From NCBI RefSeq assembly GCF_002209355.2, contig NZ_CP106855.1:1922001-1986000 (forward strand): DNA of 64,000 bases, written 5' to 3'. Source of the stretch: Bdellovibrio sp. SKB1291214 (lineage in GTDB: Bacteria; Bdellovibrionota; Bdellovibrionia; Bdellovibrionales; Bdellovibrionaceae). A program made the position numbers and the translations under genes. Under the pieces are notes generated by a model that had not been told where the DNA came from, did no database searches, and was given only the letters and a program-made list of their open reading frames with translations. Shown piece after piece: positions 6,422-35,546 of this stretch (position 1 is its first letter; each line of letters starts with the position of its first letter).

Positions 6422-8326
6422 ATGTTTGGACATTCTCAGCGGCTTGTTAAGATTTTGGGTCTCATTCTAGTTACGATGGTTTTTTATACCTTGGCTCGGG
6501 TGGAGTTTTTGCTTTGGAATTGGAATTTATTTCATTCTAAATCGGTCTCGGATTTGCTCTGGTCATTTTTTGTGGGGATGCGTTTTGACCTTTCGGCGGC
6601 TTTTTGTGGAGCAGCTCCTGCCTTGTTGTTGGCACTTATTCCGTGGCCGAAATCTTGGAATCCGCTTTGGGAAAAGGTTACTTGGGGCCTCTATTGTTTA
6701 ATCAATGTGCCTTTTTTAATTCTGAATTTGGTTGATACAGAATTCATCAATTTTGTCGGTCGCCGTTTTACTTACGATACGATTTTTATTTTGAATGAAG
6801 CGCAAGGCAAGATGCTGAACTTTATTGGCAGCTATTGGTTGCTGTTTTTGATCAATACTTTGATCGTTACGACCTTTATGATTTTGGCCTGGAAGATTTT
6901 GCGTCGCCCCGGGAATATTCATTGGGTCAGCAGCGGAAAAGCGTGGGTGGCCCATAGTTTGGTTTGCTTCTTGGTATTGGCATTCGCAGTGCTCGGTATT
7001 CGCGGCGGTTTTCAACGTAAGCCCATTAATTTTGTGAACGCGAATGTGTTCACGGCGCCTTTGTTGAACAACTTGGTCTTGAATTCGACATTCACATTTA
7101 TCAAAAGCTATGGCCGTAACGAGATCAAACACGAAAAGTATTTCGCGAACAAAGAGGATATGTTGCGTCTGTTGAACGGTTCTTTGAGGGAATCCGTTTT
7201 AAAAGATCGTCCTGCGAAACCACAAAACATCGTGATTGTGATGTTGGAAAGTTTTGGATCTGAGTATTTGGGACCTGTGGATGGAGTTTCTCGCACTCCT
7301 TTCTTGGATTCATTGATGAAAAAATCCCTGACGTTTGAGCACGCCTACGCTAATGGTCGTCGTTCGATCGAAGGTGTTGCCGCGATCATGGCCGGTATTC
7401 CTGCTTTGATGAGTGAGCCTTTTATTTCTTCGCACTTTACTGCTAATTATTTTTTGGGTTTAGGAACTTTACTGGCCGAAAAAAAATATTCCACAAGTTT
7501 CTTTCATGGGGGACACAACGGGACGATGTATTTTGATTCCTTCATGCAAAGTGCAGGAGTTGAAAAGTATTTCGGGGCCACTCAATACGCCAACTCCGCG
7601 GATGATGACGGTGTGTGGGGAATTTGGGATGAACCGTTCTTACAATGGATGCTGACTCAAGTGAATAAACTTCCTCAGCCATTCATGACCTCGGTCTTTA
7701 CCTTGAGTTCTCACCAGCCCTTTAAAGTTCCGGCTAAGTATCAGGATCAATTCAAAGAGGGATCCATTCCTATTTTGAAAACGATTTCATACACGGATAT
7801 GGCACTCGAGAAATTCTTTGCTGAAGCAGCCAAGCAACCTTGGTACAATGACACTTTGTTCATCGTAACAGCGGATCATACGTCATTGCATTATCGCCCT
7901 GAATTTACGAATGAGGTGGGGGATTACAAGGTTCCTTTGTTCTTCTTTCATCCGACGTTTAAGTTTCCAAAAGTGGACGAGCAGATGGTGGTTCAGCAAA
8001 TCGATATTCTGCCAACGATTTTGGATTTCCTAAATATCCGTCAAAAGGAAGAAAACTATCTAGGCAGTTCGATCTTTATGAAGGGCGACAAAGTCGCTGT
8101 CACCTTCAACGATGGTATCTATCAGTTGATGGCCAAGGACTACCGCATCCGCTGGGCTTTGGGGCAAAGTGAGCCACAGATGTTCGCAATCGATGATCGT
8201 GATGGAAAAAAACCGTTGTCAGAGCCTGCGGCCCGGAAAGAAGAATTGATTCTAAAACTAAAAGCTAACATCCAGTACTTCAACGAAGGCATGTGGGACA
8301 ATAAGCTGTATTACCCATCGTTATAA
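6422..8326 (+). CDS. LtaS/OpgB-type phosphoglycerol transferase (sulfatase fold)
   Basis: 634 residues. Five N-terminal membrane helices (roughly 8-30, 45-70, 85-105, 135-158, 175-195) are followed by an extracytoplasmic sulfatase-fold domain from about 265. Seen motifs: NIVIVMLESFGSE (metal-binding Glu near 276), the nucleophile region GRRSIEG (Ser near 315), SFFHGGHNGTM, FTLSSHQPF and LFIVTADHT. Family members transfer phosphoglycerol to teichoic acids or periplasmic glucans; in a Gram-negative a glucan or outer-envelope role is more likely. In lipoteichoic acid synthases the nucleophile is Thr; Ser here is compatible with the superfamily. The substrate is unknown. It stands alone, ending at a terminator shared with the opposite strand. 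Confidence 0.85.
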   Translation: MFGHSQRLVKILGLILVTMVFYTLARVEFLLWNWNLFHSKSVSDLLWSFFVGMRFDLSAAFCGAAPALLLALIPWPKSWNPLWEKVTWGLYCLINVPFLILNLVDTEFINFVGRRFTYDTIFILNEAQGKMLNFIGSYWLLFLINTLIVTTFMILAWKILRRPGNIHWVSSGKAWVAHSLVCFLVLAFAVLGIRGGFQRKPINFVNANVFTAPLLNNLVLNSTFTFIKSYGRNEIKHEKYFANKEDMLRLLNGSLRESVLKDRPAKPQNIVIVMLESFGSEYLGPVDGVSRTPFLDSLMKKSLTFEHAYANGRRSIEGVAAIMAGIPALMSEPFISSHFTANYFLGLGTLLAEKKYSTSFFHGGHNGTMYFDSFMQSAGVEKYFGATQYANSADDDGVWGIWDEPFLQWMLTQVNKLPQPFMTSVFTLSSHQPFKVPAKYQDQFKEGSIPILKTISYTDMALEKFFAEAAKQPWYNDTLFIVTADHTSLHYRPEFTNEVGDYKVPLFFFHPTFKFPKVDEQMVVQQIDILPTILDFLNIRQKEENYLGSSIFMKGDKVAVTFNDGIYQLMAKDYRIRWALGQSEPQMFAIDDRDGKKPLSEPAARKEELILKLKANIQYFNEGMWDNKLYYPSL

Positions 8327-8345
8327 AAAGGTACCAGGTAGGAAA

Positions 8346-8367
8346 AAAAGGTGCCGTGGCACCTTTT
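8346..8367. terminator. Bidirectional terminator
   Basis: Stem AAAAGGTGCC at 8346-8355 and its complement GGCACCTTTT at 8358-8367, between two convergent genes. A and T runs on either side make it read as an intrinsic terminator on both strands. It overlaps nothing coding; the minus-strand gene stops at 8369. Confidence 0.7.
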
Positions 8368-8368
8368 A

Positions 8369-9049
8369 CTAAGCAGCTTTTTTCTTATAGACCGTTCGTT
8401 GCATTTCAACGATGGCGCTGGTGATGGCAAATTCGCTGGCGTTGGCCAAGTGATTGAACTCTAAACCGATAACCATGTCGTCGCCTTGCACACGCAAATT
8501 CTTAACGAAGCCTTGTACCGGAATTGGATCACGATCACCTAAAAAGATGACGGCTTCCACGCGGTCATCCAAACGCATTGTTGGCATGTCAGCAGTGGAA
8601 AGAACGGCACAACCTTCTGTTGAAAGGTCGATCAGACGCAAATTCGTATTGAAACTTGCTTGGTTTAAAGTCGCGATCATACAGTCCGCTTGAAAGCCGG
8701 TGGGCAGGGTGTAACGGAAGTTTTTACGTCTTTGTAAGTGAAAGACATCTTTGATCGTCAGGTTTACGCCGCCTTCAAACGGAATGCCTGTCGCTTCAAA
8801 CATATACTTTTCATTATTCACGCGGAAATAACATGTCAGAACTTTACTAAAAGAAAATTTAAAGTTTCCGCCATCTGTGATGATGCACTGGATTTGGCCG
8901 GCATTATTCATCGATACGGCGTTGACGTGTTCGCTTTCGTCTTCGGAACCTTTAACAAGAATAGCTCCTTCGATGGCAGTCAACTGCTCGAACAAGTATT
9001 TCTTTTGTTGGCCGTCGTTGACGGCTTTGAATACAACAACTGGTCCCAT
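8369..9049 (-). CDS. PilZ-domain c-di-GMP receptor protein
   Basis: 226 residues. The N-terminal half (to ~105) is a YcgR-N-like beta domain; the C-terminal half is PilZ, with the c-di-GMP-binding QRRKNFRY motif (R...R) near residue 107 and DLSTEGCAV (the [D/N]xSxxG motif) near 145, then VIGLEFNHL. Such proteins link c-di-GMP to motility, adhesion or secretion. The start is ATG at 9049; a GTG three bases earlier overlaps the upstream stop, so the two genes are translationally coupled. The upstream partner is a cyclic-nucleotide-binding protein, suggesting both belong to one nucleotide-second-messenger output. Confidence 0.88.
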   Translation of the reverse strand: MGPVVVFKAVNDGQQKKYLFEQLTAIEGAILVKGSEDESEHVNAVSMNNAGQIQCIITDGGNFKFSFSKVLTCYFRVNNEKYMFEATGIPFEGGVNLTIKDVFHLQRRKNFRYTLPTGFQADCMIATLNQASFNTNLRLIDLSTEGCAVLSTADMPTMRLDDRVEAVIFLGDRDPIPVQGFVKNLRVQGDDMVIGLEFNHLANASEFAITSAIVEMQRTVYKKKAA

Positions 9050-23294: not shown

Positions 23295-23780
23295 TTAGTT
23301 ACGTTTTTTGCGAGCTTGGTTGCGGTGTTCTTCGTGCCAAGATTTTCTGTGATTTTGATGATGTTCTTGGTTTTTGTCAGACTTAGGCAAGTTCTGCAAA
23401 GCGGCCTTTAATTGTGAATGTAACGGCATCAGTGTTGCGCCATTCAACAACAATCCACGGTATTGCTTGCCGAAAGTGTCAGCTGCAGGATTCTCTTCAA
23501 ACAACAGGCGCTCTATTTCTGCGCGGGCAGTTTCACCGTGCTGTTCAGAAATCATCTCAAGCTCTGTCATGATATCAATGTCGGCCATCAATGAAGTCAG
23601 CTCGCGCAGCCATTTGTAGCGTTCCGCAGTGATCAAAACATTGAACCATTCGTTCGGTTGAGATTCGTAACCCACCTCATGGTCAAACTGCTCTTTAAGG
23701 GCAGTTAAAACTTCTTTTTGCAAAGCCCAAAGAGCTTGGCGAACTTGCATAGCATTGGAGTGGTGGTGTGATTTTGTCAT
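23295..23780 (-). CDS. Unknown helical cytoplasmic protein
   Basis: 161 residues, mostly alpha-helical and charged, with a His/Asn/Lys-rich C-terminus. A GYESQPNEWFNVLI and RYKWLRELTSLMADID segment is its most conserved-looking part. No family recognised. The start overlaps the stop of the upstream flavoprotein gene by four bases (ATGA), so it is translated with it. Confidence 0.7.
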   Translation of the reverse strand: MTKSHHHSNAMQVRQALWALQKEVLTALKEQFDHEVGYESQPNEWFNVLITAERYKWLRELTSLMADIDIMTELEMISEQHGETARAEIERLLFEENPAADTFGKQYRGLLLNGATLMPLHSQLKAALQNLPKSDKNQEHHQNHRKSWHEEHRNQARKKRN

Positions 23781-24880
23781 GTGTGGACTCTACCGTATTG
23801 CAGAGGCCATGTCACATCGACGCCTAGTTTTTCGGCAGCGTGTAACGGCCAATAAGGGTCATGTAACGAACTCCGGGCGATTAAAATCAAATCAGCTTTC
23901 CCAGATTGCAAGATTTCTTCAGCTTGGAGGGCTTCGGTGATCTTACCGACGGCACCGGTTAGAATTTCTGCTTCCTTGCGAACTCCTTCAGCAAAGGGAA
24001 CTTGGTATCCGGGACCTACAGGAATTTTCGCTTTGGGCACATTGCCGCCACTTGAACAATCGACAAGGTCAACGCCCCGTTTTTTAAGTTCTTTCGCGAA
24101 TGAAATGCTTTGTTCTAAATCCCAACCTCCATTGTCCAGCCAATCTGTGGCAGAGATACGAACAAAAAGCGGAAGCTCCGCGGGCCATGCTTTGCGAACC
24201 TCGGCTGCGACCTCTAAAGGAAAGCGCATGCGATTTTCTAAACTGCCGCCATATTGATCTGTGCGCTGATTTGAAATTGGCGACAAAAACTCATGCATCA
24301 AATATCCATGGGCCATGTGCAATTCAATCACTTGAAAGCCTGCTTTTTCAGCAAGGCGGGTGGAGTGAACATAGTCCGTCACTAACTGCTTAATTTCTGG
24401 GATTGTAAGCTCCCGCGGGGTGGGCCAACCTTCCGCAAAGGGTAAGGGGCTTGGACCGACGGTTTCCCAAGCGCCCTGATCCATGCCCAAAGGTTTGCCG
24501 CCTTTCCAGGCAAGATCCGTCGAGGATTTGCGACCGGCATGGGCCAGTTGTATTCCCGCCACAGTTCCATTGCGTTTGATAAACTCGGTGATGGGTTGGA
24601 AGTTGCGAAGCTGTTCTTCATTCCAAAGTCCCAGGCAGCCTGGAGAAATACGTCCATCAGCGCGAACTCCGGTGGCTTCGACGACGACCAGGCCAGCACC
24701 TCCCACGGCCCGGGACCCTAAGTGAACCAGATGCCAATTGTTAGGGACGCCATCCGTTGCCGAATACATGCACATGGGAGCTATGGCGATGCGGTTTTTA
24801 AGCTCGATTGAACGAAGCTTTAAAGGACTAAAGACGATTGAACGAAGCTTTAAAGGACTAAAGAGTCGAGTTTGGTTCAT
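23777..24880 (-). CDS. Old-yellow-enzyme flavoprotein (NADH:flavin oxidoreductase, YqjM-like)
   Basis: 367 residues, FMN-dependent. Seen: LKNRIAIAPMCMYSA, HLVHLGSRAVGGAGLVVVEATGV, HAGRKSS, HMAHGYLMHEFLSPISN (the His pair and gate), FVRISATDW and LILIARSSLHDPYWPLHAA, the YqjM-type signatures. It reduces activated C=C bonds, such as in enones or nitro compounds. The N-terminus carries a perfect duplication of 10 residues (FSPLKLRSI, twice) from a 30-base direct repeat. Natural starts of the family have one copy. No nearby regulator is evident. Confidence 0.92.
   Translation of the reverse strand: MNQTRLFSPLKLRSIVFSPLKLRSIELKNRIAIAPMCMYSATDGVPNNWHLVHLGSRAVGGAGLVVVEATGVRADGRISPGCLGLWNEEQLRNFQPITEFIKRNGTVAGIQLAHAGRKSSTDLAWKGGKPLGMDQGAWETVGPSPLPFAEGWPTPRELTIPEIKQLVTDYVHSTRLAEKAGFQVIELHMAHGYLMHEFLSPISNQRTDQYGGSLENRMRFPLEVAAEVRKAWPAELPLFVRISATDWLDNGGWDLEQSISFAKELKKRGVDLVDCSSGGNVPKAKIPVGPGYQVPFAEGVRKEAEILTGAVGKITEALQAEEILQSGKADLILIARSSLHDPYWPLHAAEKLGVDVTWPLQYGRVHT
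24805..24864. repeat. Perfect 30-bp tandem duplication inside the OYE gene
   Basis: Two back-to-back identical 30-base units at 24805-24834 and 24835-24864. Being a multiple of three, the repeat adds 10 residues without a frameshift. It is near the start codon of the minus-strand flavoprotein. Confidence 0.95.
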
Positions 24881-26144: not shown

Positions 26145-26449
26145 CGATTCAGTAATTTCACTCGTTGCGTAAATTGATTTCTAATTATTAATATCTGCGA
26201 TTTTTTCTTCACAGGTTTCTGCATTTCTTCGCAATTTCTCGAATGAAAAACATAAAATTTCTGTTCTCATGACTGACCTCAGGGATCAAACACGGCGAGT
26301 TCGGCCAGTGTTCATTACAAAAATATTTATATCCACTCCATGACCTCAGCGATACGAATTTATTCCAACACACAACTGCATCTTCAGGATTTTACAGGTA
26401 CGTCGGCTCACACCTGAAGGTGCTTAAAAGATTTTATGGAGAAAATTTT
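26145..26449 (+). promoter_or_regulatory. Leader region of the six-gene exported cluster, with hairpin
   Basis: A 305-base gap. An 11-pair stem (GCATCTTCAGG at 26378-26388 with CCTGAAGGTGC at 26413-26423, one G-T) lies just before the GGAG ribosome site at 26438. Two copies of TGACCTCAG (26274-26282 and 26341-26349) are 67 bases apart. A weaker hairpin is seen around 26290-26312 (AACAC...GTGTT). AT-rich boxes near 26165-26190 could be a promoter, but spacing is not convincing. Confidence 0.5.
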
Positions 26450-26995
26450 ATGAACTTGAAACGCGTATTAATCGTGTTGGCTACTCTTTTGCTTAGCTAT
26501 GCTTCCCATGCAAATGAATTCGACGAGGGTTCTGGTGAGTTCGACGCTCTTGCAAGACCGGGCTACAGCGAAGCAGACATTCAAAAGAAAATCGAAAATG
26601 AAATGGCAATCGCTTGTTCAGGAAACCTGTGCAAAGTGGTTGGTCAAGACAACCAGGGTTCTGGTTGGACCGTTCAGTTTCAAGTCGGCTATGGCGATAA
26701 TAACAATAATGGCAATGGCGATACGATCTATATCGGCGGCAACAATAACAACAATGGTGATGATGGATATGCCAGTGTCACGGTCACTTACAGAAATTTC
26801 AAATGCCACTCCAACCTTTTAGTGACCCCTGCCGTGTACCGCTTCGTAAATACCTACCTTTACAACATGGTGAATTCTGATGGCTCTGTGAAAAGGAATT
26901 TCTCTCCTGCAGATCAAACAGTCATTTTGTTCTACACGACAATGTTGAACAAGGTGAGTGCATGCGGCATGGGCGGCGGCGGCGGATTGAACTAG
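26450..26995 (+). CDS. Exported Asn-rich protein, first of six-gene cluster
   Basis: 181 residues from ATG at 26450 (GGAG upstream; a longer frame from 26420 lacks a signal start). Signal peptide LKRVLIVLATLLLSYASHA. The middle carries two Asn/Gly/Asp-rich runs (DNNNNGNGD and GGNNNNNGDDG) flanking TIYI. Four Cys (ACSGNLC, FKCHS, ACGM) and a Gly-run C-terminus (GMGGGGGLN). No family recognised. The next gene begins 12 bases later. Confidence 0.75.
   Translation: MNLKRVLIVLATLLLSYASHANEFDEGSGEFDALARPGYSEADIQKKIENEMAIACSGNLCKVVGQDNQGSGWTVQFQVGYGDNNNNGNGDTIYIGGNNNNNGDDGYASVTVTYRNFKCHSNLLVTPAVYRFVNTYLYNMVNSDGSVKRNFSPADQTVILFYTTMLNKVSACGMGGGGGLN
26696..26766 (+). repeat. AAT/AAC-rich low-complexity segment
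   Basis: Short imperfect AAC/AAT and GGC/GAT codon runs encode the Asn-rich segments. Such runs can vary in length between strains by slippage. Confidence 0.6.
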
Positions 26996-27007
26996 GAGTG
27001 GGCGGAT

Positions 27008-29746
27008 ATGAAGCTATCATTGGGTATATTGATGTTAATCCTAGGCACCTTTGGTGCCGTGGCGCAGGCGCAGGCCTCTGTGCCGACATCGGGAACGACT
27101 CTTCAATTAAATAATTTAAGAATCGCTAATAGAGCTCAATGTGCGGTGGATTCCGAGATGCCAACCGATACCGCTTTCATCGTAGTTGATGGGTATAATG
27201 CGGGAAAACTTTCGTACTCTTTGGCTAAGAACATCGGCGCCGATGGGGCGCAAATGAGTTCGCAAGGGATGCAGGATTTCCGCATTGCTGTCTCGGTACT
27301 GACAAAAAATATCGCGAATAAATTATTTACGGGTGCACTGCCGATGCTCCCGTTAAATTTGAAAACATCCAAGCTTCATCAATATAATGCCTTGGCTGCG
27401 AAATGTGACAAAAAAACTTACTGTCCAGAACTGAATACTTACCTTGCGAAAATCTGGGATAACTCCGAGGGCGCCGGAATTCCTTGGACGAAAATTGATA
27501 ATTTCACCGGTTCCCAATTTCTGAAGTCTAAAAAGGCAGATCGTGTGGGCTGCTTTTACGTAAAAAAATTCTCGGGTCTTCAGGGAAATCTGCATACGAC
27601 AGAATTGGACGTCGCATCCTTACAGGATATGGCCCAGTCCTATTTAAATCATGATAAGAATATCACGGCTTGCGAAGATCGTGATGTCTCTCTCGATTCC
27701 AGAAACTCCATGATTCAACTCAATTTAAAGTTGGACGGGGTGGGCGATTTCAATGCCTATGGTTTTGATTTCTGGAACAGTGTTAAAATCTATCTTTCCT
27801 TTGCGTGGAGATATTCAAACATTCCCTCGCAAGTCAGTCCCCATATGGGAGAGCTGTTTAAATCCGTGGCGCTCGAGGAATCCATCATGTTGGTTCCGAA
27901 TGGCTGTAAAAGTATCGAAAAACCGGCTTGCGATTCAGAAACTCTATCTTTGAATTCTCTGCGAGAATTAGCGAAGCCAGGTCAGAATCCTGCGGATTCC
28001 TTTAAAGAAAATCCAGATGGACCAGAAAAAGGCACAGTTAATAATGGCGCGCGTTCGGTGAACGACGATTTCTTGGGGACTCGTGGCTATCAAGAGGCTT
28101 CTGATTGGGTGGAAAATTTCCGTAAGAACTATGTGGAAAACCGTGGCTCCATGAAGAATCGTCTGCAAAGTTCGATTCAATTTTTGAATGTCTTGTCTGG
28201 CGCGATGACCGCGGAGGAACTTAATGAATTCGTAAAACCAATGGCCTTTGCCGGCCATTATTCGAATACCCACCGTGACGAGCTTTACTACATGTGCACA
28301 GAGGCTCGCCTGGCCGGTGACAGACGCTTGGATTTCATGCGTTCAGGAATTGACCGTATAAAACAACTTAGCGTCATGCAAAAGGCTTTTGAAGGGTCTC
28401 CTAAATCTTTGGATCAAATGGAAGAATATTTCGATCGATCCGCTGCGGGTTTGGTCAGCTTTTGCGATACTTTAGAAAAGCAAAAAATTTGGAATGTTGA
28501 TGGCTATGTTGTCAATCGCGAAGGCTTCAATCGCTGGGCAAAAGAAATCCTAAACATCCCGCGCAATAAGGAAGCGACAGGAGTCGAATTCCAACCGATG
28601 ACTTTCGGGGCGCCCCTTTTGGTGTGGGATAAAAGTAAGCCTACAACGCCGTCTAATATCATTTGTTTGACGGGAATGGATTGTGCTCGCAAATTGACCA
28701 AGGCCATGGTGGACCTGTATGCAGTATCCAAGTATGCAGATGCATTTTTACCTGTTTCTTCAACAGTCTCTTCGCCAGATATTTTCAATCCCTATGCGGA
28801 TCTGAAGGCCTGCAAGATTTACGATCCCTGGTTTCAAACACGTCGCGCGAACAAGCGCCTGTTTGCGGATTTAACAAGTACTGTGTTGTTTGGTTGGAAT
28901 GCGCTGCCGATGTACATCGATGTGGATTTCACAGCTCCGAAGGTCACAAGCCTTAATGAGATGATTGAAAATGGCACAGTTAAGTTTGATCCGGCGATTC
29001 AAAAATCAAAAATGCAGTATGCGATGCTAGCTGATTTCGGTCCTCTGGTCGGCGCGCCCTGTGCGGTGTCGATTGCGCCAAACAGTGCTAAGGCTTTTAA
29101 CTTTTATGCATTTAACGGCATCACGCTGAATTATTGCAAAGCCCGTTCTGATGGCACGGCAATAGGCGGTAACAACGGCTCTGTGGAAAATAAAACGCCA
29201 GATGCTCGATCATATTGCGGCGGTTGTTCCTTGAATTTCGTGGGTGTGACTTCTGGAGCCGCGATGATGACAGCAAATGCGCTGCCTATCAACCCCATCA
29301 AGCTTGGAATATATTTCTTTCGTTCCATCCAACGTTTTGTCCAAGCAAAAAAGGACAAAGTGAATATTCCGATTTCTGCTGACGTGAATTTACAGAAAGT
29401 GGCAGAGACTTATCAAAAGCACGGCGGATCTATTCCAGAACACTGCGTGGAGCAGCTGGGGGCGGGCGTGGGCTGCTATCAAAGTATTTGTGTGGCAAAG
29501 GCAGCAGACGCCTTTGAAAAATACACAGGTAAAAAGGTTCTCGACATCGAGACCGCAAGCACAACTTCGTCTTCGATTACCAAATCCGTCGTTATCAAAT
29601 CTGCATTTTGCGATGGCGATGTTCAGATGAAATTCAACTGCTCAGACGATGGCAAAAGATTTTCGACCTTTGAACGTTTTGGTGGACTGTATGGTCGCAC
29701 CAAAGCATGCCGTGATGCCATCGGGCAGAATTTCTGGGGGCGCTAG
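27008..29746 (+). CDS. Large exported Cys-rich protein of unknown family
   Basis: 912 residues with signal peptide (LGILMLILGTFGAVAQAQA). About 22 Cys are spread over the whole length, among them CKSIEKPACDS, YCGGCS, GCYQSIC and CDGDVQMKFNC, which suggests many disulfides and a periplasmic or surface location. The rest is a mixed helical/strand protein with no known domain or catalytic motif. It is by far the largest in the cluster and may be its core. GGAGTGGGCGGAT precedes the ATG, and its stop overlaps the next GTG start by one base. Confidence 0.78.
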   Translation: MKLSLGILMLILGTFGAVAQAQASVPTSGTTLQLNNLRIANRAQCAVDSEMPTDTAFIVVDGYNAGKLSYSLAKNIGADGAQMSSQGMQDFRIAVSVLTKNIANKLFTGALPMLPLNLKTSKLHQYNALAAKCDKKTYCPELNTYLAKIWDNSEGAGIPWTKIDNFTGSQFLKSKKADRVGCFYVKKFSGLQGNLHTTELDVASLQDMAQSYLNHDKNITACEDRDVSLDSRNSMIQLNLKLDGVGDFNAYGFDFWNSVKIYLSFAWRYSNIPSQVSPHMGELFKSVALEESIMLVPNGCKSIEKPACDSETLSLNSLRELAKPGQNPADSFKENPDGPEKGTVNNGARSVNDDFLGTRGYQEASDWVENFRKNYVENRGSMKNRLQSSIQFLNVLSGAMTAEELNEFVKPMAFAGHYSNTHRDELYYMCTEARLAGDRRLDFMRSGIDRIKQLSVMQKAFEGSPKSLDQMEEYFDRSAAGLVSFCDTLEKQKIWNVDGYVVNREGFNRWAKEILNIPRNKEATGVEFQPMTFGAPLLVWDKSKPTTPSNIICLTGMDCARKLTKAMVDLYAVSKYADAFLPVSSTVSSPDIFNPYADLKACKIYDPWFQTRRANKRLFADLTSTVLFGWNALPMYIDVDFTAPKVTSLNEMIENGTVKFDPAIQKSKMQYAMLADFGPLVGAPCAVSIAPNSAKAFNFYAFNGITLNYCKARSDGTAIGGNNGSVENKTPDARSYCGGCSLNFVGVTSGAAMMTANALPINPIKLGIYFFRSIQRFVQAKKDKVNIPISADVNLQKVAETYQKHGGSIPEHCVEQLGAGVGCYQSICVAKAADAFEKYTGKKVLDIETASTTSSSITKSVVIKSAFCDGDVQMKFNCSDDGKRFSTFERFGGLYGRTKACRDAIGQNFWGR

Positions 29747-30339
29747 TGAAGAATATATTACTGGGACTTGTCTTATCTTTCAGTTCGCTCAACGCCGGGG
29801 CTTTTACGGTTGAATCCACCTACGACCAGATATTAACGGGGCAGTATGTGAAAACCACCAAGGTTTCTTGCCAGGAAACCACGGCAAACTATTGCACTCA
29901 GATTTGCAACAACCCTGTGCAATGTGTAAGGCGAGAACCGTACTGCAGAAACTGTGCGGGAACCTCCTCGCCATTGCTGCGCCAACTCTTCACCGAACTC
30001 TCCCGATTGTATGCGATTCAAGCCCCAATGCTGGAGTTAAGTCCTCTGATCCATTTCTTGGCCCATCAGAATTACGTACTGCTGGATTTGAACAGCGTAT
30101 TTAATTACTACACGCCCGTGGGTGGAGAACTCTTTTTGAATGAGCTTCGAAGTTTTTGCGCAGATCAAGCAGATACTGCTCTTTTAGTGGTGAAGCTGGA
30201 TGAGGTTCATCAACCGGCATCCCTGAACTATGTTTTGTGCAAAAACCCCATGGGCCAGACGGCAGCATTTGAAGTTGCACCCCGCACGCCAGGTATTCAA
30301 CAGCAATTGAAAACAGAAATATTTTTTAACTTAAACTGA
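29746..30339 (+). CDS. Exported Cys-rich protein
   Basis: 197 residues. Signal peptide ILLGLVLSFSSLNAGA. Eight Cys, six of them packed in residues ~40-70 (VSCQETTANYCTQICNNP, VQCVRREPYCRNC), giving a compact disulfide knot-like region; then a helical part and FCADQ, VLCKNP. No family recognised. GTG start overlapping the stop of the 912-residue protein (TAGTG) indicates translational coupling, hence a likely partner. Confidence 0.76.
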   Translation: MKNILLGLVLSFSSLNAGAFTVESTYDQILTGQYVKTTKVSCQETTANYCTQICNNPVQCVRREPYCRNCAGTSSPLLRQLFTELSRLYAIQAPMLELSPLIHFLAHQNYVLLDLNSVFNYYTPVGGELFLNELRSFCADQADTALLVVKLDEVHQPASLNYVLCKNPMGQTAAFEVAPRTPGIQQQLKTEIFFNLN

Positions 30340-30386
30340 GGAATTCAGTTTATTAAAACTCCCTTAACCGGGAAAAGGAGAACAAC

Positions 30387-31517
30387 ATGAAGCGTTTTGT
30401 AAAAGGTTTGGCTGCGACAGCCGTTACCTTCATGGCGATCCAAGCGAACGCCGTGCAAGTTACTTATACATTCAGAGTGAACAGCTCTGGTCCAAGCATT
30501 TATCCGTGTAATGCGGGTCTATTAACAGAGAATCCATATCAAGGTGACAAAGCAATTTGCTACACTGCGGATACTCACGAAGTTTGTGATCCTGATTGCG
30601 TCGGAGTTGATTGCCAAGGTAAAGACAATGGTAAACCAGGCCCTGAGTTGCCAGGTCCGGGTAATCCACATCCGCACTCTGCTGCGATGGAACTATTTAC
30701 GGGCGGTCATCACGGTCCTCCGGGCGGTGGCGGTCACCAACCTCCAAGAAAAAATGTTTGCGAATGTACGACAGAATACGGTCGTAAAAACGGCAACTAC
30801 CTTCATGCGACTTACACTCCATGGGGTGAAAACAACGATCCACACAAAGATGTGATCTCTGGCCAAGGCAATCAATTTGCTAAGCTTTTCAATGACGAAG
30901 TAACGCCATATAAAAACGTATTGCAAACTTTGGCATTCAATCTTGGTAGCGAATTGTATACAGCGAAATACTTCGTTGATATCTGCTACCGTGGCTCACA
31001 AATTGACTACGGCACAATCAATACTGGCTGGAACATTCTTGCTGAAACGGCGGTAACAGACTTTGGTTTCGCACCACAAGGCCAAGGTTACAGCAAACTT
31101 TCAGATCTTGAGATGAAAGCCTATGTGATCTGTACAAATCAAAACAAGACTTGTGAACACGGCAATTGCAACGAATACGATACAGCTATCGATGGCGCGC
31201 AAGTGGCTCAATTCAACAACGCGTTCTTGGATTATTTGGGTCAAGGTAAATTCCATTACTCTGACAAATCTAACTGGCAACCAGCTAAAGGTTCTTTCAC
31301 TCAGTTGATCGACAACAAAAATGAAGACCTTGGTAACCACGCAGCAGCTAAATTCTGTAAAGTTCGTTACGTGTATTCTGAAACGAATGGTTTGGATAAA
31401 CACAAAGCAAAACACAGAAAATGGCAAAAACACGGCGCTAATATCTGCACTCACACGAAAATTGAGATGGCATCTATGGGCGAATGTTCTAACTGTGGCG
31501 GCGGCCACCACCACTAA
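30387..31517 (+). CDS. Exported Cys/His-rich protein, paralogue of the sixth gene
   Basis: 376 residues. Signal peptide FVKGLAATAVTFMAIQANA. Fifteen Cys and a Gly/Pro/His-rich insert (~100-125, ELFTGGHHGPPGGGGHQPPR). The end is CSNCGGGHHH, a plausible metal site. Shared with the 298-residue protein two genes on: an early CNAG, EVC, a CxC, LGSE..AKY.VDICYRG/LGSE..AEYSVRFCYLG, then (K/R)FCKV/FCVFEF, and a final IC.H/ICKQG...C. A strong AAGGAG ribosome site lies upstream. Function unknown. Confidence 0.78.
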   Translation: MKRFVKGLAATAVTFMAIQANAVQVTYTFRVNSSGPSIYPCNAGLLTENPYQGDKAICYTADTHEVCDPDCVGVDCQGKDNGKPGPELPGPGNPHPHSAAMELFTGGHHGPPGGGGHQPPRKNVCECTTEYGRKNGNYLHATYTPWGENNDPHKDVISGQGNQFAKLFNDEVTPYKNVLQTLAFNLGSELYTAKYFVDICYRGSQIDYGTINTGWNILAETAVTDFGFAPQGQGYSKLSDLEMKAYVICTNQNKTCEHGNCNEYDTAIDGAQVAQFNNAFLDYLGQGKFHYSDKSNWQPAKGSFTQLIDNKNEDLGNHAAAKFCKVRYVYSETNGLDKHKAKHRKWQKHGANICTHTKIEMASMGECSNCGGGHHH

Positions 31518-31530
31518 TTCGAGAGTTTAA

Positions 31531-31554
31531 GCATTTCCGCTAAAGGCGGAGTGC
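31531..31554 (+). other. Intergenic hairpin between cluster genes four and five
   Basis: GCATTTCCGC (31531-31540) pairs with GCGGAGTGC (31546-31554) with one bulge. It may tune expression or RNA stability between the two genes. Confidence 0.4.
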
Positions 31555-31572
31555 AGAGAAGAGGAGACTGCG

Positions 31573-33144
31573 ATGTCTGAAATTAAACTGAAGAGATTCT
31601 GGTCTCTTCTTCTTGGGTTGTTCTTCACTCTATCGGGCGCGGCGGCGTCCGCAGCCTGCGTGGTGGACAATGATGATCGAATTCAACTTAATGTTTCCCC
31701 CGAGACTAAGTCTTGGGGGGACTACAATGGGAATAAACTTATCACGGCCTCTAAGGTTTATAAGTGTGAGCAAGATGCGGGACGCTATCTGATGCTGTCG
31801 ATGGGCGCCACTCAGTGGAGCGCATCCACAGATGTCAAAGACACCTATTTATTTGATACCTATGAGCCCGAGACATGCTCTTTAAAAAACTCGAAGGCTT
31901 TTGCGTCTTATACACCGGAGCGCACTAAAGCCAACTTCAGTCGCCAGTACAAATTTATCAGAAGCTGTTTCGATCTTCGCGTGGTTGATATGGGCGGTGC
32001 CCAAATCATTGCTAAGGAAAACCAACAGTACTGCAAAGTGGAAAGAACCTCTGACGGCGCTGTCATTCTTCGCGGTGATATGTGTTTTCTAAAAATTCGT
32101 GCGCAAAGTAATTTTGCCGTGCAGCCGATTTTCAACAATAAATGTGCAGACCCTGATTACTTGCGTTCGATCGGCGTTCAAGCTCAGGACATTTATGCCA
32201 ACCTGAATATCCTAACAACAGGGGATGATTCCGGTTACAGCGAGGACGTCGACAACATCGGCAGCCGCGCGTTGCATATTAATATCACTCCCAATTCTAA
32301 AGTCCTTAATCTGTCCGAAGATTTTGGCGCCAGTGTCCCAAGATTTCCAACCAGCTACAACATCAACGCTGATTGGGGGGACTTGAAAATCCATACGGAT
32401 TTTGAAAATAAAACTGAAATTGATCTTTCGTTTTTTGTCTCTAATATGGCCTCAGAAAAATGTGTTGCAGGGGAATGCTCGAGCTCTTCAAATTTTACCC
32501 AACCTTTTGTGGGGCAGGTGGAGCTTTTTAAACTTTCAAGTGGCCGTCCTCCCAAGCTTGTGGAGGAGTGGTGGGATGGTGGACTGGTTCCTCCAAACTG
32601 GCAGGGCTTTGTCAAAGGGATTCAATACCGTGTACCTGATACCGTCGTCGATGCTGGAGGACGGTACCGAATGGTTGCAACCTTCCAAGATCCCACAGAT
32701 GACTATGCGATTTATTTGAACGGTCTTCGTCAAATGTTGCTGCGCATGTATGATGTCGAAGGCGCTACAGTAGGGGTCGATACCTTGCCTGCGTTAGCGA
32801 CTTTAAATACATTAGGTGTGATTCCGGGATTTAACGGAACCCGTGTGTTGAATCAGAATAACCAAAGTGTGGATTTGTCTCAGACATTAAAGGGGCTAGA
32901 GGAGATTATTTCCTCCACAGTCTGGCCGCCTTACTATAGTGCGATTTGCGATCACGACAAATGCACAAAAATTAAAAACAGAAAATTCCATCAACGTCTG
33001 GTTTTGGAGTTTGTTGTAGGACGCCCCGAAGTTGGTGAGGATGAAGTGAAAATTCAAGACATCCATATGCAAAAAATCTCTCCGATCTTTGACAACTATC
33101 CGATGCAGAAAGCTGACTTCGTGAGCTTGCAATGTGGGGGATAA
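31573..33144 (+). CDS. Exported Cys-rich protein of unknown family
   Basis: 523 residues. Signal peptide around LLLGLFFTLSGAAASA. Twelve Cys, beginning CVVDNDD, with pairs such as KCVAGEC and ICDHDKC. Long beta-rich stretches (WGDYNGNKLITASKV, FYVSNMASEK-like and YLNGLRQMLLRMYD) suggest repeated beta domains. No family recognised. AGAGGAGA before ATG. It is flanked by the two paralogues of the cluster, and the next gene starts just after its stop. Confidence 0.76.
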   Translation: MSEIKLKRFWSLLLGLFFTLSGAAASAACVVDNDDRIQLNVSPETKSWGDYNGNKLITASKVYKCEQDAGRYLMLSMGATQWSASTDVKDTYLFDTYEPETCSLKNSKAFASYTPERTKANFSRQYKFIRSCFDLRVVDMGGAQIIAKENQQYCKVERTSDGAVILRGDMCFLKIRAQSNFAVQPIFNNKCADPDYLRSIGVQAQDIYANLNILTTGDDSGYSEDVDNIGSRALHINITPNSKVLNLSEDFGASVPRFPTSYNINADWGDLKIHTDFENKTEIDLSFFVSNMASEKCVAGECSSSSNFTQPFVGQVELFKLSSGRPPKLVEEWWDGGLVPPNWQGFVKGIQYRVPDTVVDAGGRYRMVATFQDPTDDYAIYLNGLRQMLLRMYDVEGATVGVDTLPALATLNTLGVIPGFNGTRVLNQNNQSVDLSQTLKGLEEIISSTVWPPYYSAICDHDKCTKIKNRKFHQRLVLEFVVGRPEVGEDEVKIQDIHMQKISPIFDNYPMQKADFVSLQCGG

Positions 33145-33149
33145 ATCCT

Positions 33150-34028
33150 ATGAAGTGGATTTTTATAGCTTTCGTTCTGTTAATGGCTTTGGCTTCTCAG
33201 GCAGAAGTTGCCATACAAACGGCCGTAGATACGACAACCGCCGAGGAGTTATATCTATGCAACGCAGGCCTTCGTCACCCGACTTTACAAAACGAACAAG
33301 AGTGCTTGGACCTGTCTTCGGGAGAGGTTTGTTCCCCCCATGAGAATGACCCTAAAAAGCCCGCTTGCGTTTGCCGTGCTAAATCTAATTACGGTGATCA
33401 GATCATCGGCTGGAATCAGGATGGGGAGTACGCTAACATTATTGGAACAAACGATTGGATGAGCTTGTTCTCAACACCCAATTCGTTTGCCAATAAATTG
33501 TCACGTTTGGATATTTCGTTAGGCAGTGAAAACCTGGGGGCTGAGTACTCGGTTCGTTTTTGTTACTTGGGACCCCAGGAAGTTTTGAAAACGGAAGGCA
33601 CGACCACCAAAGATCTGACAGAAGGAAAATACCAAGTTGAAGTTTCTTTGGCGGGTGCGAATTACAACAAAGCCTTGGATAAAGTCTATTTTTCTTATCA
33701 ATGTGATTACCGTTACCGTGGGAACCAATCGGGTCCTCGCAGATCGAATGATCACGGACCTTCTAAAGGTATCGTCGAAAACGACGACAGCGCAAACTAC
33801 ACGATCTTTGGTGATTCCCCGGGGGCACGTCCAGGAACTGTTAATTTTCTTCGCAGAGCTTTATCCTTAAACTCAACCTCTTCGCAAGTTCCGCGGTTTT
33901 GTGTCTTTGAGTTCAAATTCAAAGAGCTGGCAGGTAAAAACCTGGGCAGAAATATTAATGCGACCCAGGCCAACTTCACGGGCAAGCTTCGCATATGCAA
34001 GCAAGGCACTTGTCCTTCTGGCCTTTAG
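33150..34028 (+). CDS. Exported Cys-rich protein, paralogue of the fourth gene
   Basis: 292 residues from ATG at 33150 (an upstream ATG at 33132 overlaps the previous gene and gives no signal peptide). Signal peptide KWIFIAFVLLMALASQA. Ten Cys in positions that align with the 376-residue protein, without its His-rich parts. GGGGGA upstream serves as the ribosome site. It is the last gene of the cluster; the following gene on the same strand begins about 75 bases later and is cytoplasmic. Confidence 0.77.
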   Translation: MKWIFIAFVLLMALASQAEVAIQTAVDTTTAEELYLCNAGLRHPTLQNEQECLDLSSGEVCSPHENDPKKPACVCRAKSNYGDQIIGWNQDGEYANIIGTNDWMSLFSTPNSFANKLSRLDISLGSENLGAEYSVRFCYLGPQEVLKTEGTTTKDLTEGKYQVEVSLAGANYNKALDKVYFSYQCDYRYRGNQSGPRRSNDHGPSKGIVENDDSANYTIFGDSPGARPGTVNFLRRALSLNSTSSQVPRFCVFEFKFKELAGKNLGRNINATQANFTGKLRICKQGTCPSGL

Positions 34029-34103
34029 TTTGCAACTTGTCCGAGTTTGAGCGTTTCCTATCTAATCCTTGACCGAATTATTGTTGGGAACAATGATTTG
34101 ATC

Positions 34104-34697
34104 ATGAAGATGACCGAAGAGATTTATCAAATGCTCGTGGCTTCCCCTGAAGAGGCCAATAAAATGGCGATGCTACACTTGCAGTCCGCCCATAGCCAAG
34201 AGGAAAAAGATTCCATCAATTGGGCCCGAGCCTTTGCTTTGGTCGAAATGAAGGAATATGCCGAGGCCCTTGAAATCTGGCAGGACATTTTCAATCGTAC
34301 CCAGGATCATAAAGCTCTTCACCAGGTCGGCTATGTGCACCGAGCCTCTGGAAATTTGCCGATGGCAGTAAATATATTTAGCCAAGAATTCTCTCTGATT
34401 TCCCAAGATGATAAACAGTCCTTAGCTGTGAATCTTTACGAGCAATCATACAGCCATATTCTTTTAGGATACATGCGCAAAGCTCACGAGATGTTCACTC
34501 GCTATGAAGAACTGAACATGAGCGAATTTGATCTGATTGAAAGAGGCTGCTTTTTCCGTTTAAAAGGTGATCTTCATAAGACAACGGACGTTGTCGTTGC
34601 GAAAACAGCCTACGAGGAAAGCCTCAAGTTTTTTACTCAAGCCAATGACGAAACAGCCGCGCAGGAAGTTAAGCAAAGACTGGCTGTTTTAAGCTAA
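34104..34697 (+). CDS. TPR-like helical protein
   Basis: 197 residues from ATG at 34104 (34110 is equally possible; both share the frame). Repeating helix pairs: EYAEALEIWQDIF..., HKALHQVGYVHRASGNLPMAVNIFSQEF, and LGYMRKAHEMFTRYEELN, typical of tetratricopeptide repeats, which bind proteins. No signal peptide, so cytoplasmic. It lies between the exported cluster and a regulator. Confidence 0.65.
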   Translation: MKMTEEIYQMLVASPEEANKMAMLHLQSAHSQEEKDSINWARAFALVEMKEYAEALEIWQDIFNRTQDHKALHQVGYVHRASGNLPMAVNIFSQEFSLISQDDKQSLAVNLYEQSYSHILLGYMRKAHEMFTRYEELNMSEFDLIERGCFFRLKGDLHKTTDVVVAKTAYEESLKFFTQANDETAAQEVKQRLAVLS

Positions 34698-34787: not shown

Positions 34788-35546
34788 ATGAACGATTTTA
34801 GAACTTATCTTCAACATGAATTCGCGAAAAGGGTCGGTAAGAACCCTTCTTATTCCCTGAGAGCATTTGCGACTCAGTTGAAGATCAATCACGCGACTTT
34901 ATCCAGCATCCTATCTGGTAAGCGCAGTTTGACGGACAAAACGGCGACGAAGCTTGCAGTGGCATTAAATCTGTCACCAAGCCAGATAAATGAAATGATT
35001 GGGAATGGCCCAACAGAAAGCAGTAAAGCTGAAAATGCCTATCACGTCCTTCAAGAAGATACTTTTGCATCCATGTCCGAGTGGTATTTCGATGCGATCC
35101 TAGAGCTAACATTGATTCCCAGATTTAAAATGGAGCCTTCGGTGATCGCGGCCTCTTTGGGGATTTCTACGGTTCAGGCTAAGATGGCTTTGGAAACTTT
35201 GGTGCGATTGAACCTGATTTCAAAAATGAAGAACGGCAGATATCGACTGATGCATCCCAACAGCGATAATTGCTTGGATGCCGAATATACCAGTGCTGCG
35301 AACAGAAAGTATCAGCTTTCTATTTTAAACAAATCTACTCAGGCATTGGAAAATATAGATCGTAGGCACCGAGATCATACGTCGATGACTCTTGCGGTCG
35401 ATTCTAAGGATTTGCCGAAAGTGAAAGAGATCATCCAAAAGTTTCGCCGCGAAATAGACGCATTCACACATCGCAAAGAAGCTAAGTTGAATTCTGTATA
35501 TCAACTCCAAGTTTCCTTTTTTCCTTTAAGCAAATTAGAAAAATAA
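34788..35546 (+). CDS. TIGR02147-family regulator with XRE-like helix-turn-helix
   Basis: 252 residues. Residues 20-65 form a Cro/CI-type HTH (YSLRAFATQLKINHATLSSILSGKRSLTDKTATKLAVALNLSPSQI). The C-terminal part (FASMSEWYFDAILELTLIPRF, AASLGISTVQAKMALETLVRLNLI, SVYQLQVSFFPLS) is the TIGR02147/DUF4423 signature. The family is abundant in Bdellovibrio and Fibrobacter and is thought regulatory. GTGCAA repeats upstream may be its autoregulatory site, and the two exported proteins that follow may be its targets. Confidence 0.85.
   Translation: MNDFRTYLQHEFAKRVGKNPSYSLRAFATQLKINHATLSSILSGKRSLTDKTATKLAVALNLSPSQINEMIGNGPTESSKAENAYHVLQEDTFASMSEWYFDAILELTLIPRFKMEPSVIAASLGISTVQAKMALETLVRLNLISKMKNGRYRLMHPNSDNCLDAEYTSAANRKYQLSILNKSTQALENIDRRHRDHTSMTLAVDSKDLPKVKEIIQKFRREIDAFTHRKEAKLNSVYQLQVSFFPLSKLEK

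Follow-up and report, generated by a model that had tools for sequence, protein, structure and literature searches.

Bdellovibrio sp. SKB1291214 belongs to the Bdellovibrio lineage and has a genome of 3.68 Mb in a single contig. We analyzed a window of 64,000 nucleotides from it (G000:C1:1922001-1986000), to which the coordinates below refer unless a genome or locus is named. Six adjacent genes on one strand (26450-34028), preceded by a leader stem-loop, encode proteins that are predicted to be exported. An original prediction, made from the sequence of this stretch, had singled them out as a plausible disulphide-rich complex that looked specific to its lineage, with a conjectured role at the cell surface or in prey contact. 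The features of the gene run are:

26378-26423, plus strand: leader stem-loop with an 11-pair stem (GCATCTTCAGG/CCTGAAGGTGC) and a 24-nucleotide loop containing GNACGT; putative cis-regulatory RNA element
26450-26995, plus strand: gene 1 (family F4), 181 amino acids, predicted to be exported, Gly/Asn-rich, 4 conserved Cys
27008-29746, plus strand: gene 2 (family F1), 912 amino acids, predicted to be exported, 22 Cys, all conserved, CGGC motif
29746-30339, plus strand: gene 3 (family F2), 197 amino acids, GTG start, predicted to be exported, 8 conserved Cys
30387-31517, plus strand: gene 4 (family F0, first copy), 376 amino acids, predicted to be exported, 15 Cys, His/Gly-rich insert and tail
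31573-33144, plus strand: gene 5 (family F3), 523 amino acids, predicted to be exported, 12 conserved Cys, two immunoglobulin (Ig)-like domains in the structure model
33150-34028, plus strand: gene 6 (family F0, second copy), 292 amino acids, predicted to be exported, 10 Cys, paralogue of gene 4

All six open reading frames are present with the starts originally given for them, and the gaps between them, put at -1 to about 55 bases, measure 12, -1, 47, 55 and 5 bases from gene 1 to gene 6. Genes 2 and 3 share one base (TAGTG). Judged by eye, the N-termini of all six proteins are basic and then hydrophobic, like Sec signal peptides and in agreement with the signal peptides that had been proposed, and none contains a lipobox. 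The proteins have 4, 22, 8, 15, 12 and 10 cysteines, which bears out the count of five proteins with 8 to about 22. Pfam, NCBIfam, PHROGs and PADLOC gave no significant match for any of them. Searches of PDB sequences with the five core families and with F5, a hydrolase-like protein of related loci described below, returned nothing. The statement that no domain could be recognized therefore stands. The products of genes 4 and 6 are similar (BLASTP E 7e-6 over 203 columns), so the six genes represent five families (F4, F1, F2, F0 and F3). Profile comparison detected no homology of F0 with F3 or of F1 with F2.

The five families occur together across Bdellovibrionota

The gene 2 family was searched for in 100 close relatives, 144 genomes of the class and 369 genomes of the phylum, and relatives were found in 33, 33 and 75 of them, respectively. 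A search with F3 matched the same 33 class genomes. The gene 2 protein had no match on plasmids or phages. When one conserved peptide pattern was scanned against about 85,000 species genomes, it was found only in Bdellovibrionota-type records and a few loosely named metagenome-assembled genomes; the scan used this single pattern, and the family could still occur in other phyla. The lineage-specificity originally proposed thus holds for Bdellovibrionota, with a scope wider than had been envisaged, namely the entire phylum.

We compared 57 loci including that of the window, 37 from Bdellovibrionia and 20 from elsewhere in Bdellovibrionota. All five families are found together, as a cassette, in 53 loci; three others end at the border of a contig or stretch, and one is an orphan. 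The complete set is present in 34 of the 37 Bdellovibrionia loci (L056 and L066 end at a border, L038 is the orphan) and in 19 of the 20 loci from the rest of the phylum, where L148 ends before gene 1. The five families co-occur and do not stand alone, save in the one orphan. This orphan (L038:6150-8918) is a lone gene 2 homologue of strain kdesi (G016) with no other core family beside it, in a genome that has two complete cassettes as well. The same flanks surround a complete cassette in L042, and L038 is a cassette decayed to its largest gene. The Bdellovibrio genomes examined have up to three cassette loci each. For instance, two cassettes lie at 708-717 kb and 2,835-2,843 kb in a relative that we take to be B. 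bacteriovorus HD100.

The order of the genes varies, and at least three arrangements exist: F4-F1-F2-F0-F3-F0, F0-F3-(F0)-F4-F1-F2, and a divergent one in which F3-F0 faces F1-F2. The adjacency of F1 and F2 and that of F0 and F3 are kept in all of them, and gene order is conserved to this extent. Genes 2 and 3, whose overlap had been read as a mark of fixed partners, are neighbours in every examined cassette that holds both, and many cassettes hold F0 twice. The pairwise divergences of the core families correlate with Spearman coefficients of 0.83-0.93 (F1-F3 0.93, F1-F4 0.93, F1-F2 0.86). In the gene 2 tree, cassettes cluster by chromosomal site, with conserved flanking genes; the site of the window's cassette is common to L031-L034.

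Conserved cysteines and predicted disulphides

Conservation of cysteines was scored over 54-57 loci, a count inflated by related sequences. In the four single-copy families, the conserved columns number 4 in gene 1, 22 in gene 2, 8 in gene 3 and 12 in gene 5; they are always even in number and include every cysteine of the window's proteins. In gene 2, the cysteines of the pairs C133/C139 and C868/C901 are present or absent together without exception (r = 1.0), as are those of C297/C302 and C459/C464 in gene 5 (r = 1.0), and one more pair of gene 5 is found in step in other lineages. The even, fully conserved cysteines and their paired loss indicate, by strong though indirect evidence, that the core proteins contain structural disulphides. 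Two CXXC motifs, CGGC in gene 2 and CRNC in gene 3, are nearly invariant across the phylum. The genome codes for three DsbA-type proteins.

Structure models of genes 2 and 5

The gene 2 model, built with 22 relatives, has a mean predicted local distance difference test (pLDDT) score of 77.5 and a predicted template modelling score of 0.75. It consists of a mixed α/β N-terminal part, long helices at residues 364-491, a β-rich part at about 635-742, whose prediction is poor beyond 678, and a small α/β C-terminal domain. Foldseek and VIA found no clear match to it in the PDB (best E 0.77; best Z 5.1 over the one small C-terminal domain). The search used the whole model, so a single domain of it may still have a known fold. 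No thioredoxin-like fold stands out in the model.

The gene 5 model (pLDDT 80.4) has two Ig-like domains. Its best VIA match is the Enterococcus WxLIP structure 9i25 (Z 10.3, root-mean-square deviation (rmsd) 7.1 over 237 residues), followed by many pilus chaperones of the PapD type (PapD/FimC/CsuC, Z 7-8); CfaE also aligned. Foldseek matches, with E 1.7e-4 or worse and low TM-scores, include pilins and a fimbrial adhesin. These matches of the model are a likeness of fold and domain number and no evidence of function.

Probable hydrolases encoded with many cassettes

Many cassettes encode F5, a protein of about 400 residues that is predicted to be exported. It is present in 20 of the 37 Bdellovibrionia cassettes. 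As in NlpC/P60-type cysteine hydrolases, an Asp-Cys-Ala-Asp motif (DCAD) and a later His are invariant in F5; unlike them, F5 falls below detection by the Pfam NlpC/P60 family and has only weak likeness to DUF4846. Its sequence motifs suggest that F5 is likely an NlpC/P60-like cysteine hydrolase. In three cassettes without F5, namely L051, L151 and L159, an exported trypsin-like protease (Trypsin_2, PF13365; at 7803-8918 on the minus strand in L051) is encoded between F2 and F0 instead. The gene 3 product is long (423-471 amino acids) in L051 and L151. In the clade of the window, neither F5 nor the trypsin-like protease is found in the operon in any of the nine cassettes with enough sequence. 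The divergence of F5 correlates with that of the core families at 0.57-0.66 (Spearman). F5-like proteins are also found in all 24 genomes of the genus that were searched, several in each and mostly standing alone; copies in the genome of the window are at G000:C1:2151611-2152840 and 2260042-2261421. F5 homologues were considered as markers of hidden cassettes and rejected, as the copies whose surroundings were read stand alone. The hydrolases, the phylum-wide spread of the cassette and the paralogy of genes 4 and 6 go beyond what the original prediction had described.

A stem-loop in the leader

The 11-pair hairpin that had been proposed for the leader folds as described. The 81-nucleotide leader segment gave a z of -2.1, and 11 of 200 shuffled sequences folded as well, a weak statistic when taken alone. 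The hairpin is kept at the same site in four orthologous cassettes, with sequence changes. Stems at other cassettes are mostly unrelated in sequence, such as TGTCAGG/CCTGACA, GGGCGCTCGA/TCGACCGCCC and TCTTTCAAAGTTC/GGACCTTGAAGGA, yet they too flank a loop with GNACGT, which lies some 40-54 bases ahead of the start codon. In five of these cassettes the stem closes a loop of 22-27 nucleotides around ACGT, with shuffle p values of 0.001-0.006 each. Because the stems differ, alignment of the hairpins across cassettes with MAFFT fails, and they were tested singly by folding and shuffling. Six of the nine loci tested gave p values of 0.001-0.006, two of the six being related cassettes; the test gave no support for a hairpin in L034, L057 and L045. 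Cassettes like L035-L037 and L059 have no such hairpin. When one group of leaders was turned into a covariance model, it recovered essentially only its own members and no other strong site in five genomes, and so did not define a regulon; Rfam returned nothing credible for the leader. The natural reading of these sequence comparisons is that the leader carries a conserved RNA regulatory element.

Neighbouring genes

A monofunctional peptidoglycan transglycosylase (PF00912; 25398-26144) lies immediately 5' of the leader and is kept at this position in four orthologous loci. On the 3' side are a TPR-like protein (34047-34697) and a helix-turn-helix protein of the TIGR02147/DUF4423 type (34788-35546). 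The latter two are found near some orthologous cassettes and not near all, and are therefore not part of the core. In the protein encoded at 23777-24880 on the minus strand, the predicted N-terminus contains FSPLKLRSI twice in tandem (FSPLKLRSIVFSPLKLRSI), which suggests that a short stretch was duplicated in frame or that the true start lies further on.

Discussion

Because the five families co-occur across the whole predator phylum, the products of the six genes very probably assemble into a single uncharacterised structure, which would lie within the cell envelope or beyond it. Co-occurrence, synteny, the cysteine pattern and the lack of a known family strongly support the part of the original prediction that called for a lineage-specific, exported and disulphide-rich complex with fixed partners. 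Its placement at the surface and in prey contact is still a matter of inference; a cell-surface adhesion or contact structure would be the most likely place and role. We put at about 0.5 the probability that the products form an obligate hetero-oligomer outside the cytoplasm that serves adhesion or contact.

In such a complex, the proteins would cross the inner membrane via Sec, and the DsbA-type enzymes of the genome could then oxidize them. Gene 2 may provide a large scaffold with the gene 3 product as its fixed partner, while gene 5 with its two Ig-like domains and the paralogous products of genes 4 and 6 would be β-rich subunits, and gene 1 would add a small Gly/Asn-rich component. In many relatives, the co-encoded exported hydrolase may mature the complex or modify its target. 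In the lineage of the window, the complex could do without the hydrolase or draw on one encoded at another site of the genome. The leader hairpin probably adjusts how well the transcript is translated or how stable it is.

Several observations weigh against an adhesion or contact complex. The six genes encode no obvious outer-membrane anchor, usher, secretin or sortase signal, so surface display would need another route. Of the 24 genomes of the genus, seven, including several complete ones, have no cassette, and the system is therefore accessory rather than a core predation device. Provided that these seven belong to predators, the set is dispensable for predation in general. The correlated distances of the core families partly represent shared species history. 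F5 belongs to a large family that is also solitary in every Bdellovibrio genome searched, and it may be only loosely tied to the cassette.

Comparison with known systems shows partial likeness in each case. WxLIP proteins (the DUF916/DUF3324 family of Gram-positive surface complexes) belong to a multi-gene extracytoplasmic system, as gene 5 does in the cassette, and the gene 5 model shares their two tandem Ig-like domains, with WxLIP as its top structural match. However, gene 5 has no sequence match to WxLIP and no Pfam match to DUF916/DUF3324, so the likeness is at the level of fold only; the host is Gram-negative, gene 5 has 12 conserved cysteines, and the cassette has no WxL domain protein. 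Sets of exported, cysteine-rich proteins are also found in F-type conjugation (TraN, TraU and TraH). Unlike these, the six proteins have no significant match in Pfam or NCBIfam, those three families included, and gene 2 is not found on plasmids. The MAT fibres of Bdellovibrio are surface adhesins, each a trimeric fibre from a single gene and many with a C-terminal S74 domain (PMC10769870). Like the cassette proteins, they are exported, belong to the same predators and have many paralogous loci (PMC10769870). Pfam, however, detects neither an S74 domain nor an equivalent trimeric fibre domain in the six products, and cysteines or disulphides go unmentioned in the text on MAT fibres (PMC10769870).

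Chaperone-usher pili (PapD/FimC and the archaic Csu type) likewise place an exported protein of two Ig domains beside paralogous exported subunits. The cassette could accordingly encode a divergent fibre of this kind, with gene 5 as a two-domain Ig chaperone and the products of genes 4 and 6 as fibre subunits; the VIA alignments of gene 5 over both domains with PapD, FimC, CsuC and CfaE, and the two F0 copies of many cassettes, would fit. We hold this to be quite improbable. The rmsd is about 5-7 Å over two domains, and unrelated Ig pairs, WxLIP among them, align as well, so the likeness may be at fold level only. Pfam finds no chaperone or pilin family and no usher among the six genes, and neither the 12 conserved cysteines of gene 5 nor the cysteine-rich protein of 912 residues, which has no pilus counterpart, fits such a pilus. 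No usher is encoded in the cassettes, and the genome has one fimbrial usher (PF00577; G000:C1:1465252-1465908, at 1.465 Mb), which is about 0.48 Mb from the window.

The hydrolases suggest another arrangement, a digestive or effector complex secreted into the prey or the medium, with the cysteine-rich proteins as carriers or inhibitors for the linked enzyme. F5 in more than half of the Bdellovibrionia cassettes and the protease that three others have instead would agree with this. We consider it unlikely, as the window's cassette and its sisters keep all five core families with no hydrolase in the operon, and F5 evolves less in step with the core (0.57-0.66) than the core families do with one another (0.83-0.93). 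Little credence is given to a periplasmic system for redox or peptidoglycan maintenance, in which the CXXC motifs of genes 2 and 3 (CGGC and CRNC, respectively) would be redox-active or metal-binding. The near-invariance of both motifs and the resemblance of the F5 motif to peptidoglycan hydrolases speak for it, but the gene 2 model has no evident thioredoxin-like fold, paired loss of cysteines suits structural disulphides, and the set is dispensable and patchy. Patchy presence at several chromosomal sites might also point to a mobile or defence island, an idea that is already disfavoured and very improbable: the cassettes form stable clades by site between conserved flanking genes, the gene 2 protein is unmatched on plasmids and phages, and the PADLOC scan found no known anti-phage defence protein.

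No member of a known system was identified in the cassette (Pfam and NCBIfam gave no significant match to a secretion, pilus or conjugation family), and defining features of the candidate systems tested are missing. We regard the system as new in kind by the families that it contains. No description of these genes was found in the literature, including through HD100 locus tags near the two cassettes of that genome, for which the mapping of tags is uncertain; supplements and subscription journals lay outside this search. More tentatively, the adhesion or contact complex might be a new surface appendage or contact organelle of Bdellovibrionota, built with disulphides from five families (six proteins with the paralogue) that have no relatives elsewhere, with an optional hydrolase and stem-loop control, and used to hold or open other bacteria. 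This is possible, though we would not expect it. The gene 2 product is a large protein, and no PDB structure clearly matches its model. How the predators of this phylum attach to and handle their prey is still poorly explained, and the five-family set provides a defined genetic target for this question.

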